A program made the position numbers and the translations under genes. A stretch of DNA of 64,000 bases from contig CAJNOJ010000133.1 of assembly GCA_905250025.1 (NCBI GenBank), forward strand, positions 213,255-277,254. Reading direction: 5' to 3'. The notes under the pieces were generated by a model. The model was not told where the DNA came from. It searched no databases and saw only the letters and a list, made by a program, of their open reading frames with translations. Positions within the stretch are counted from its first letter, which is position 1. Each line of letters opens with the position of its first letter. This stretch comes from Adineta ricciae (Eukaryota; Rotifera; Eurotatoria; Adinetida; Adinetidae). Positions 46,761 to 53,787 of the stretch are shown here, in pieces.

Positions 46761-47024
46761 AATCTAAAAACAACTTTGAAGTACAACAGTGCTTTTCTGT
46801 TTATTTGCAAAAAAAAATCTGTGATTTCTTTTTATTTGAATTTATAAACACATAAGACAAGTCTTTCGATATTTTTTCTCGTCAACTCTCTCTCGCTGTA
46901 TATCAAAACAAAATACACAAGAAAGAGATGTATGAATATGTATAAGTATATGTATATCTGACAATGGCTTCACTGTTTCATTCAGCTAATATCTGACATA
47001 ACAAGATATTTGAAATGGTTCATG

Positions 47025-48507
47025 TTAAAACTTTTCTTCATAATTATCAAATGGTTGTAAAGCAAATTGCACAATCGATTCCAGTATCCATTCAGGACTG
47101 AGAAAGTGAACACCATTGGAGCGTGATGTTTCGAATAGTTGCTGTTGATTAGAAGAATGAAATGGAAGTAGTTTATCACAGAGCACAATCGTTAATATCG
47201 ACGAATCATTAGATGTTGTTATTGGAAGAGTATTTAAAAGTGTACCGCCACACAATGTTATCAAAGAAGCAAGCTCAGTTTTATCCTAAGAAAATCAAGT
47301 CGAAGAATTTCATTCAAATTAATGTTCTTTACCATTTTCTCTTGACAACCGTTACAAAGGATAAAGATATGACAATTTTCGAATAGATTTGCATGCTTGG
47401 ATAAGCGACTATGACGCATGCCATCGTGATATTCTCCGAATGGAATATCACCTCGTATTTCAAACGCAAGTTCGTCAATGAGTTGACTTTGTTTAAAACA
47501 TTCGGAAATCCAACGATATGTCAGAACGAATAAATGACGGGCAATCGCTTGAAATACTTTGATTGTCAATGGACATAATAATTGCTTTTCTTCATTGCCA
47601 ACAATTAAGTGTGTTGTACGATCGTCAACACAATTCGATAAGACAATCTGATTTGGAAATAATGACGCAAAACGATAAACTTCAGTCTAGAAATGAATCT
47701 TTCATTGGAAAACAGAAGTATTCTTTCAAATTTCTACATACAGTTTGTTCAATATTCAGACATGAATATGCCAAAACGATCCGTTTTTCTCCCGGTGGAC
47801 AAACCATAACAATATTTGAAGTGAACGTATCATCATGATTACCGTCACTTGTATATTCGTTATCAAACGATGTTGATAATTCTATTCAAGAAGAATTTAA
47901 CTTTTACATTATGAGAATTTGTACATTCCTACCATTGAACGATAAATTTTGTGCTGAAAATGGTGGTGACAATGTATCATCAAGATGGAACGAATCATCT
48001 TGCTGATACTGTTGTTTTTTCTTCTTCTTTTTTGCGTATAAGTTTAACGGCAATTTATTTTCTTTTCTCATTTTCACACGGGCATTGGTAAACCAAACTG
48101 TGATTTGCGACAGAGACATTTTCGTCTTTTCCATCAATTCTTGTTTATCCGTCTCATTTGGATCTACAAAAAACAAATAAGACAAAAATAAACGCGTGTC
48201 TATATCAAGCGGACAAACATACATGGATGTTGTTGATGTTCGAAAAGCCATTGTTTCAAAGGACCTGTTGAATTCTTTTCTCGACCTGTAGTGTTGAACA
48301 ATGTTGATAATTTATCATCTAAAAAAACTTGAACTTGTTAATGCAAGATGCGAATGTTGAATTCTTACCATTTGGATACTGAACAGGTACGTCCGTTTTA
48401 TTAATTTTGCAATTGGATTTCTTATTTTCACCAAATGTAATCGGTGTTGTGTCATCGAACAACATTTCATCTTCTCCAGTGCTTATGTAAGATTGTTGAT
48501 TGAGCAT
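47025..48507 (-). CDS. Predicted TALE homeodomain-tandem BRCT fusion protein
   Basis: Six exons (48507-48369, 48318-48223, 48163-47933, 47881-47742, 47686-47333, 47285-47025) sum to 1221 nt, 406 aa, with every phase matching. Residues about 56-117 are a TALE homeodomain: GPLKQWLFEHQQHPYP (PYP insertion), SLSQITVWFTNARVKMRKEN (WFxNxR). It is nearest to Iroquois/Mohawk types. A Lys-rich stretch (AKKKKKKQQ) follows. Residues about 180-400 are two BRCT repeats: VYRFASLFPN, TTHLIVGNEE, TIKVFQAIARH, VLTYRWISECF; then FEIRGDIPFGEYH, close to the BRCA1 inter-repeat region; then ITLCGGTLL and FLSPEWILES. Intron 47932-47882 (GTAGGA...AATAG, 51 nt) joins the halves. Reading into it gives a stop after nine codons. 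Alternatively two overlapping genes. Confidence 0.72.
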
Positions 48508-48721: not shown

Positions 48722-49895
48722 ATGATTAAAATGGGACCGATTGAAACCAATGCGATAGTTTCTCATCAACAGCAGCAACAACAGCAACAACCTCAGAAAT
48801 CTCGACGACGATCACATTCAAGTGAACGAAACTCTCGTGATAACAATCGACAGAAATCTCGAAGGAATACACGTTCGAGAAGTGGAGATCGCGAGTCATC
48901 ATCTTCGAGCAGTGGTTTGTATTGATTACAGGATAATTTCGACTTCATAACAATATGCTTCTTCTAGATCGTGATCATGACGATGGGAACAGAAGTATGG
49001 ACGATGACGACAATGAAGACGATGATGATAGTGTCAGTGATAGGAGTTCACGTGGAAGCCCATCGACAAGACAACCGAGTAGCATTCGATGGGATTACCG
49101 AGTAAATTGAAAAGATTTTTCGTTGCTCAAAGGAATTTCTGAGTTGATCATTGTTTGTAGATAAATCATGTAGGAAGAAGAATCAAAGAAACCAAAGCAT
49201 TCTGTTGTCTTAGTTGTCGTTATCCAGTGTTACTTGTTGGAAGATTGGTAAGACATTACTGACTGCACGAAAATCATCATAATATCCTGATTCTCAAATG
49301 TAGGTTCCATGTAAACATGCGGCTTTCTGTCTACAGTGTGCCAATGAATGTAAAAATAACAGTCGAAATTGTCCAAAGTAAATTGTTTCCACAGCAGTTT
49401 GTACTAATTAACTTGATGTTTTCTTTGAAAAGATGCAACGAAGTGATTAGTGATATCGAGAAGATCGAAGCGAAAAACCTTATTCTTTGTCATCATGGGT
49501 CACATCCACATTCACAAGATGCTTGTTTACGTGGATACACATCACAGCGTGATCTTCAAGAACATGTTAAACGACGTCATGAACAACCACCACCCCCGTC
49601 TCAGTCGGTACAAGCTCGTCTCGATCCACCGCTTCAACTACTTCCTCCTCCTACACATCCCCCTTCAGCTGTATTTCCTGGTCTTGGCGTTGATTCACAG
49701 CAACAACCACCTCCACATCCGCCACCACTGATGACATTCCCACCAATGAATGTTCCAGGAATGCCGCCACCACCTCTCTATGATATGCGGTTCCGTCCGC
49801 CAGCTTATGGTCATCCTCCACCACAACAACAATTTGTTCCTCCTCAACAGCAATATCGTCCGCACTCCTATCCTCCGAATCGACCTATGTACTAG
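48722..49895 (+). CDS. CBLL1: E3 ubiquitin ligase HAKAI (CBLL1), m6A writer-associated
   Basis: Five or so exons join in frame. The N-terminus (ATG 48722 or 48731) is Gln- and Arg/Ser-rich (SRRRSHSSERNSRD) and acidic (MDDDDNEDDDD). The conserved core reads RINHVGRRIKETKAFCCLSCRYP, then LVPCKHAAFCLQCANEC, NNSRNCPKCNEVI and IEAKNLILCHHG. It ends with GYTSQRDLQEHVKRRHEQP. This is the RING plus phosphotyrosine-binding (HYB) zinc-finger arrangement of HAKAI. The C-terminus is Pro/Gln/His-rich (PPPPSQSV, PPHPPPLMTFPP), as in other animals. HAKAI is a subunit of the WTAP/VIRMA m6A methyltransferase complex and an E-cadherin ubiquitin ligase. It converges on FBXO22 with 131 bp between stops; AATAAA lies near 49955. 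Confidence 0.9.
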
Positions 49896-50026
49896 TCGAT
49901 TCTCTTGTGTATGTACATAAAATTCAAAGAAAATCTCGATGTTTCGTTGTCTCTAATAAACTAGTATTTGACTTGAAGTATTACAACTCTGAGTGTTGAA
50001 GAGCATTGAACCGAAGATATTTATTT

Positions 50027-51690: not shown

Positions 51691-53787
51691 TTACAATTGA
51701 TGATAAATATGTCCATGCGAAGGTTGATTAGCAGTAAATGAATTGTATCCTAGTGAAGGATGTTGACGATGACCATATACAAAATCATGATGATATGACG
51801 ACGAAGTTATTGGAAAATGACTGGTATTTTCCATAAATGCTTGATTCGGTGAGGAATATGATTGTGATTGATGATAAATCGGTGGTGATTGTTGTTGCTG
51901 ACTATATTTCATTGTTGACGGATATCCATTTCGATAGTAGGATAAAGGCATTGGCTGCTGCTGCTGCTGCTGTGGTGGTAGTTGTGCTTGTTGATAATAC
52001 ATATTTTGTTTTCTGGACACATTATAATGATGATGATTGTTATTTGAGTTAGTCAATGGATATCCAGGATGTGCTGTATTAACATTAACTTGAAAATTAG
52101 CCACAACAGGTACGTTTACTGTCATATGTTGAGATGGTGTTTGCTGCTGTTGCTGAGAAGACGAATAGTAATGCGAATTGTAGGATGCAGATGCTGACGA
52201 TGATGTTGGATAATATTGTCCATCATAATCACAACATGAACAATTGATTGCATCGCAACTCGAGACTGTGGTCATTGTTGGCGGTGGTGTTATCATCGTT
52301 GATGATTGCTGCGGTTGGTTTGTCCAATCATCCGCACGAACGGGAGAAGTTTGTTCGATTTTAGTGACTTTCGGTGATGTTGAACATGCTTGAATCTGTT
52401 GGTCAGATAGTGAATCAAGTTTTTCAATTGGATTTATCTATTCATGAACAAGAAAAAAGGACAAATATCTCAAATTCAAGTGTGATGAAGGCCTTTCGTA
52501 CTTTTTCAAGCATCTTTGACGAATCTCCTTCTTGTTGTTCAAATAGCCATTGATCACTTTTCATAGAACTACACGAATGTGAAGTGCATTTATTTTCCTT
52601 GATTTTAGCTTTACGCTTTGGTCGAGTTAAACGTTCTACATTTTTCGGACTTGAAGCATCGACTTCATCAGCACTTGTGTCATCTTCATTCATTTCGTTA
52701 GCTTCGAATTCTTCCGCTAACTTGGGATCTTGCAACATTAATTGTCTTTTGTATTTCATCCGACTAACCAATAGAAATCAAGAAAGAGAATAGCAAAGAC
52801 AGAAAGAGAGAAAAAATAATAATAACTTACCGATTTTGAAACCAAACCTAGTATTGGAAGAAGAGAAAAACGATACAATTTCTTCAAGAAATTTCATTTC
52901 TTTTACCTTGACTTGTCGTTCAGTGAGTAACAATGTTGATGCAATTTCTACTCGTCGTGGTCGACATAGATATTTGGAGTAGTGAAACTCTTTTTCTAAT
53001 TCTAACAATTGCTTGTTTGTATAAGCTGTTCGAATACGTTTAGGTGCATGTGGATTATCTAAATATATATATATATGAAAAGTATATTTCTCAATATCGA
53101 TTGACACATTCGAACAGCCGGACAGTATCAATCAATCGCCATGAAGATGTCTATATATGTAGTTTATGGTCAAAAGTAAACACAACTGTTTGTCTCGTAT
53201 GCATCTATGTATATTCAAACTCGTACTGTACTTCGAAGCTTTTGTTTGAAGGGTGTCGACAGGCGGAAGAGAATATGTGTGTGTGTGTGTGTGTATATGT
53301 ATATCTATCGTACAATAAATGACAAGATATTGCAATAGTTTGATTGAAGCATTCAAAAAAGGTCAGAAAAGAAGTGTGAGATGAGTTTAACAACTGGATA
53401 ACTGGCTAATTGTTTTCTTTAGTAGATTACTGGAAGATTCATCAAGAAAAAAAAAGAGAATCGAAATCTCTTTGTTTCATCGTTCTCTTCATCTTTTAAT
53501 CAGTTAATGTAGTACTTAGCCGGATGTTTATCTCTCTTGATTGAAAATCTTTTTCCGTATCAATGAACATTGAGGAAAATCAATTAGTTAATCGGAAGCA
53601 AAAGATCTCTACCTGATCGTTTATTTTTTCTTGGCTTGCTTTTCGTTGTCGTCGTAACTTTAGGTTTTTGTTGTTCAGAATATATGTAGGTTTGTTGTTG
53701 AAACTCGTCTTCACTTGGCCGAGTAAAATAATCATCGAGATGATCGTCATATTTCGATGTACTAACGATTGCTTGAGCAGTTGCCAT
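51691..53787 (-). CDS. Hox2/proboscipedia-type homeobox transcription factor
   Basis: Five exons (53787-53613, 53058-52907, 52847-52831, 52763-52502, 52437-51691) give 450 aa with all phases in order. The homeodomain is residues about 64-123: [39 protein letters not shown] and TERQVKVWFQNRRMKYKRQ. [25 protein letters not shown] is the paralogue-group-2 signature (HoxA2/B2, pb). The recognition helix is split: VWFQNR is encoded by a 17-nt exon (52847-52831). No YPWM hexapeptide is visible before the homeodomain. The first ~58 aa are polar and basic (KPRKNKRSG) and the tail is Gln/Ser/Tyr-rich. It is a nuclear DNA-binding regulator of anterior identity by family. No other Hox gene occurs in the window. 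Confidence 0.93.
52831..52847 (-). other. 17-nt microexon in the Hox2 homeodomain
   Basis: GTTTGGTTTCAAAATCG is flanked by TACTAG on the 5' side and GTAAGT on the 3' side (minus strand). Skipping it would shift the frame. Including it is the only way to restore QVKVWFQNRRMK. Confidence 0.9.

Follow-up and report, generated by a model that had tools for sequence, protein, structure and literature searches.

The window, the whole 64,000-nucleotide stretch of Adineta ricciae DNA analysed here (C133:213255-277254 of the 130-Mb assembly that was searched), carries on its minus strand, at 48507-47025, what is very probably a single gene in which a TALE homeodomain stands ahead of a BRCA1-type tandem BRCT (Table 1). 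Rebuilt from the sequence, the six exons amount to 1221 nt, or 406 codons and a stop; the introns are 50, 59, 51, 55 and 47 nt long, all with GT-AG ends, and their phases are 1, 1, 1, 0 and 0. An earlier, sequence-only reading had proposed this six-exon fused gene, and its coordinates, introns and 406-codon frame all held on rebuilding. It had also stated that retention of intron 3 would add nine codons; GRNVQILIM followed by a stop was found in the reading frame, and a homeodomain-only isoform produced in this way is possible.

Table 1. Parts of the predicted homeodomain–BRCT gene and downstream motifs, in window positions
Feature	Position	Strand	Description
Exon 1	48369..48507	-	139 nt; start codon at 48507; N-terminus without Cys-rich repeat; kept in the C201 copy
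Exon 2	48223..48318	-	96 nt; homeodomain N-terminal arm and helix 1, up to the HP preceding the PYP loop
Exon 3	47933..48163	-	231 nt; remaining TALE homeodomain (PYP, WFTNAR), six-lysine run, first half of linker
Intron 3	47882..47932	-	phase 1, 51 nt; 50 nt in the C201 copy, absent in the C23 copy; weak acceptor
Exon 4	47742..47881	-	140 nt; second half of linker and BRCT1 first strand RIVLAYSCL (BRCA1 S1655 equivalent)
Exon 5	47333..47686	-	354 nt; remaining BRCT1 with CPLTIKVF, inter-repeat linker FEIRGDIPFGEYH, start of BRCT2
Exon 6	47025..47285	-	261 nt; remaining BRCT2 and stop codon
Possible poly(A) signals (two, AATAAA/ATTAAA)	46800..46836	-	188 and 219 nt past the stop codon

The same reading had proposed scanning the 406-aa product with Homeobox_KN and BRCT profiles, and both Pfam families match it above their curated cut-offs: Homeobox_KN on residues 70-108 (E 2.6e-17) and BRCT on two stretches (E 2.2e-18). 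A search of NCBIfam returned 0 families. The homeodomain has the expected TALE features, PYP at residues 78-80 and WFTNAR at 102-107, and is followed by a basic run, KKKKKK, at 123-128. Compared with PDB sequences, it is closest to PKNOX1 (1.8e-10) and MEIS2 (8.3e-10). Among eight unfused homeodomains of the same genome that we compared, the nearest were those on contigs C282 (30/63 positions identical) and C87 (26/50), both of which we take to be Iroquois-like. The window homeodomain differs from Iroquois (IRX) proteins in helix 3, which reads WFTNARVKM rather than WFANARRRL, and in being fused to BRCTs.

For the BRCT part, BRCA1 was the best match among PDB sequences (phmmer E 4.9e-23, covering residues 34-248 of a 252-aa query), ahead of BARD1 (1.5e-4) and microcephalin (6.5e-4). 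The description of this half as a BRCA1-like tandem BRCT is thus borne out, with BRCA1 as the nearest solved structure and 56 of 206 aligned positions identical. The likeness to BRCA1 that had been remarked on between the repeats also appears in the alignment, where TIKVF and FEIRGDIPFGEYH of the window protein lie opposite TLKYF and FEVRGDVVNGRNH. An exon 5 query found no relatives in the viral DNA collection or in the bacterial/archaeal DNA collection.

The pocket that reads phosphoserine in BRCA1 is largely retained. With the human BRCA1 chain numbered from K1648, six of the eight pocket residues checked are identical in the window protein (the equivalents of S1655, T1700, K1702, F1704, M1775 and L1839). 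CPLTIKVF of exon 5 supplies three of these (T1700, K1702 and F1704), and S195, T243, K245 and F247 are the window-protein equivalents kept in the phosphate and +3 pocket; conservation therefore extends beyond the TxK motif (T1700 and K1702) that had first been noted. We take T1700 to be a phosphate contact. The two changed positions are G1656, which is Cys, and R1699, which is Leu; in BRCA1, R1699 holds the main chain at +3. In passages of PMC4728184, the phosphate contacts of BRCA1 are given as S1655/G1656 and K1702, the +3 pocket as L1701, F1704, N1774, M1775 and L1839, and R1699 as a main-chain contact; mutating R1699 or G1656 lowers or abolishes binding. With Leu and Cys at these positions, binding may be weaker or of another specificity, and the pocket as predicted fits a phosphopeptide site of altered preference.

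Two further copies of the gene bear on its structure. The copy on contig C201 is allele-like and agrees with the window gene in all six exons, in phases and in coding length. Over 1221 nt the two differ at 44 bases, of which 34 are third codon positions; ten differences replace an amino acid and the other 34 are silent (dN/dS 0.070). Silent changes are in excess in both the homeodomain and the BRCT halves: the counts of silent and amino-acid changes are 5/1 in the N-terminus, 3/1 in the homeodomain, 6/1 in the linker and 20/7 in the BRCT part. Around the junction made by intron 3, the 38 codons before it hold four silent changes and one amino-acid change and the 31 codons after it two and none. 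Intron 3 itself differs in length between the two, whereas the coding lengths are equal.

The second copy, on contig C23, is more diverged. Here a single stop-free exon (C23:124906-124623) runs through the second half of the homeodomain (WFTNAR), the linker and the first strand of BRCT1 (RICIAYSCLNSEQI). Introns 1 and 3 are not needed in this gene, whose start was read by eye, and introns 2, 4 and 5 retain their positions and phases. A hidden intron is formally possible, because the exon contains 18 in-frame GT..AG pairs of at least 40 nt. The joined 392-aa product matches Homeobox_KN (2.8e-17) and, over two stretches, BRCT (4.6e-17) in Pfam; the residues flanking the junction align with those of the window protein, and the linker is shorter by about 26 residues. 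With silent sites near saturation in both comparisons, window versus C23 gives a dN/dS of 0.123 for the homeodomain and 0.200 for the BRCT part, and C201 versus C23 gives 0.125 and 0.164, respectively; the linker yielded no ratio in the comparisons with C23. The presence of near-identical and of ~65% identical copies agrees with a degenerate tetraploid, but is no proof of one.

The fused gene is a member of a family and not a single case. A query with the BRCT pair found at least 29 pieces in the genome, which we modelled as 22 BRCA1-type BRCT loci; six near-identical pairs among them (C133/C201, C8/C77, C2:632k/C5, C245/C264 twice and C9/C23:580k) reduce these to 16 groups. The genome contains 55 Homeobox_KN matches; six of the 22 loci, or four of the 16 groups, have one on the same strand no more than 1 kb upstream: C133 (the window gene), C201, C23:124k, C8, C77 and C3:58.9k. 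Apart from a second C3 locus that follows the fused C3 gene, no listed BRCT locus has another Homeobox_KN match within 100 kb.

The fused genes on C8, C77 and C3 form a second, more distant paralogue group of the same order, in which the frame of a TALE homeodomain precedes an exon ending in the first BRCT strand (TCLDDDQM), with the BRCT pair next. The best-looking intron between the domains is in phase 1 throughout, 49 nt in C8 and C77 (GTGAGT..TTTCAG) and 59 nt in C3 (GTAAAA..TTTTAG), chosen from 8, 18 and 3 frame-compatible candidates in C8, C77 and C3, respectively. Joined by its reading frames, the C8 product matches Homeobox_KN (2.8e-14) and BRCT (2.2e-12). Unlike the window gene, the genes of this group also bear upstream repeats of ~45 aa in which a Cys3-His pattern is invariant.

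That a phase-1 intron separates the domains in both groups speaks for a single origin of the fusion. The four fused genes do not group together as one clade in the best BRCT tree, built from 16 rows after seven of 23 (six near-copies and the incomplete C3b) had been removed, or in the homeodomain tree, whose 12 rows include eight unfused ones (one partial) hand-chosen from 27 unfused loci; neither tree rejects one clade, with AU p values of 0.214 and 0.124, respectively. Most likely, an Iroquois-type homeodomain would have been placed ahead of one member of a BRCA1-like BRCT family that has expanded.

Our data are consistent with a model in which one gene encodes one protein, whose N-terminal stretch leads into an Iroquois-like TALE homeodomain, followed by a basic run, a short linker and, at the end, a BRCA1-type tandem BRCT. 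The homeodomain would bind DNA, the six lysines would act as a nuclear signal, and the BRCT pair would dock partners bearing phosphoserine with a hydrophobic residue at +3, such that the protein could bring a phosphorylated factor of repair or transcription to selected sites on the DNA. Judging from the sequence, we give this full mechanism, a phosphopeptide reader tethered to DNA, a probability of roughly 60%. Histone marks and partner proteins are the main route by which BRCA1 and its kin reach DNA; a BRCA1-type reader with a homeodomain of its own would directly link DNA sequence to phospho-signalling.

It is also conceivable, if unlikely, that the homeodomain has stopped reading DNA sequence and rides along as a passenger, with the fused protein acting as a BRCT adaptor only. 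In homeodomain numbering (W48, F49, N51, R53 and R55), the window gene keeps N51 and R53, and the TALE residue R55 is replaced in all four fused homeodomains, by K in the window gene and by I in C8 and C3; in C3, helix 3 has also changed from WF to WL. Sixteen of the 22 BRCT loci, with ~1.5 kb upstream read, have no Homeobox_KN match there, and the homeodomain-like Myb of human RAP1 shows no appreciable DNA binding alone, according to passages of PMC12221994. Against loss of function stand the dN/dS of the homeodomain between window and C23, lower than that of the BRCT part, and the retention of WF.NAR in three of the four fused groups.

Compatible with such a passenger, and in our view holding a similarly small share of the probability, is a BRCT pair that makes a phosphate-independent contact with protein or DNA, for example with a dimer partner or a nucleosome, instead of reading phosphoserine. 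The loss of R1699 and G1656, the residues whose mutation impairs binding in BRCA1 (PMC4728184, in the passages seen), speaks for this explanation, and R1699 is kept at none of the 22 family loci. The remainder of the phosphate site points the other way, with S or T at 1655 in 21 of the 22, S or T at 1700 in all 22 and K at 1702 in 20, counts for which the first BRCT1 strand was hand-placed in five models. The DNA-tethered phosphopeptide reader remains our preferred reading.

A more basic challenge to the fusion would be two adjacent genes in the same direction, perhaps in an operon, with the homeodomain gene ending in intron 3 and the BRCT gene trans-spliced at 47881 and starting from the ATG of IVMVCPPG. 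The intron 3 acceptor is a real point in its favour: its score of 0.4 is lower than that of any of the 29 introns used for comparison (0.5 to 12.6), although the splice table was trained on these same 29 and so favours them over intron 3, and the set is small and includes near-copies and some introns from doubtful models. The donor, by the same table, scores 7.2, above seven of the 29. An in-frame stop nine codons into intron 3 and AATAAA/ATTAAA motifs at 48402 (exon 1) and 48059 (exon 3) could likewise suit a separate first gene. However, the C23 copy is stop-free across the junction, and both C201 differences in the 31 codons that follow it, a small number, are silent and lie upstream of the IVMVCPPG ATG. 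In the supposed second transcript, moreover, out-of-frame ATGs at 47836 and 47833 would precede the in-frame ATG at 47807, and C201 has a third. The bdelloid spliced leader has 0 exact matches in the genome, which is weak evidence against trans-splicing.

We consider two genes very improbable and reject them on the grounds of the C201 and C23 copies, the second paralogue group, the codon changes and the upstream ATGs. The open C23 exon, the C201 copy, the paralogue group of the same order and the codon-level conservation around the junction argue that one fused gene, close to certain in our judgement, lies at this locus. Chance neighbours are rejected, since random placement of the 55 matches would give an expected 0.007 loci with a same-strand Homeobox_KN within 1.5 kb, against the six found among the 22.

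No known system combines these parts in the same way among those compared. The C-terminal tandem BRCT is shared with BRCA1, including the six identical pocket residues, but the window protein is only 406 aa long, has a TALE homeodomain in front and carries Leu and Cys for R1699 and G1656. BRCA1 has an N-terminal RING finger that pairs with BARD1; no RING was among the eight Pfam families that match the window protein at E <=1, and it is therefore not BRCA1. BARD1 has a similar tandem BRCT and was the second-best family in the PDB search, with a match weaker and shorter than that of BRCA1; the window protein has neither its RING nor its ankyrin repeats in Pfam. Nearest in working logic is RAP1, in which a helix-turn-helix DNA-binding fold and a BRCT share one protein. 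RAP1, however, consists of an N-terminal BRCT, a central Myb and a C-terminal RCT, with a single BRCT, whereas the window protein has a TALE homeodomain first and then a BRCA1-type pair; because domains and order differ, it is not RAP1. Passages of PMC12221994 describe RAP1 as an adaptor protein at DNA that unites a homeodomain-like Myb and a BRCT.

Among the literature matches listed, none reported a homeobox-BRCT protein, and a query for Homeobox_KN with BRCT had no match; the pairing of a homeodomain with a BRCA1-type BRCT is, within those matches, apparently unreported. One class in a review of BRCT proteins combines them with homeodomains, and we take it to consist of RAP1-like proteins. 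It appears there as 'two single domains + two homeodomain', among the common BRCT architectures (PMC10386641).

A larger repertoire of BRCA1-type readers bearing new heads is a candidate for how the bdelloid DNA-damage response differs. Bdelloid rotifers are known for the repair of shattered genomes and, if our interpretation is true, the expanded family could direct where breaks are recognised and repaired in an animal able to survive massive DNA breakage. According to a DNA-repair study, Adineta vaga lacks BRCA2, NBS1 and RAD52; its passages found here mention BRCA2 loss and do not mention a BRCA1-type family (PMC6264785). A later A. vaga table, in the portion seen, has one row named BRCA1 (PMC12220480).

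The N-terminal heads in this family are varied. A repeat of ~45 aa, GDIIxLxxGxRKKFxGxxWRxxCxxPxCxxxxQxxxLCxxH, precedes several of the BRCA1-type BRCT pairs (L025, L026, L028, L006 and L058, on contigs C8, C77, C3, C161 and C9), and R, G, W, three Cys and one His are invariant across six aligned copies. The single C8 copy scanned matched only Pfam Zf_WRKY19, below threshold, and had 20 genome matches at E <=0.01, some of them far from any listed BRCT locus. At two other loci, L051 (C2:980 kb) and L052 (C161:152.9 kb), C2H2-like fingers, CSTCRHEFSKRSNFLTHVRNIH and CTACQHEFSHRSAYLRHIKNIH, precede BRCA1-type BRCT pairs; the fingers fall below the Pfam C2H2 cut-off and are not joined to the BRCTs in one gene model, but suggest a swapping of N-terminal heads within the family. 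More tentatively, and with doubt outweighing confidence, the 16 groups and 22 loci could constitute an expanded family of BRCA1-type readers in which different heads (a TALE homeodomain, C2H2-like fingers or the undescribed Cys3-His repeat) take one phospho-reading tail to differing DNA addresses, calling repair or checkpoint factors to chosen sites.

Several observations concern the surroundings of the gene. Two more BRCA1-type BRCT loci lie at C133:190091-193175 on the minus strand, some 20 kb ahead of the window. Upstream of the locus at 192.6 kb are Cys-rich stretches of the form RSFRDxSGxxRxLC..C....RQ...FCRR, and the locus at 190 kb has a Cys-rich stretch of another kind. ARAGORN found 0 tRNAs in the window. 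Another homeobox exon, this one unfused, lies at 52904-53041 on the minus strand, ~4.4 kb upstream of the fused gene; it has a counterpart at C201:177013 and appears to resemble Hox2/proboscipedia. On the plus strand, at 48731-49990, a low-complexity gene with a start rich in Gln and Ser/Arg is seemingly divergent from the fused gene, and its start at ~48731 leaves an upstream region of ~220 bases common to both genes.
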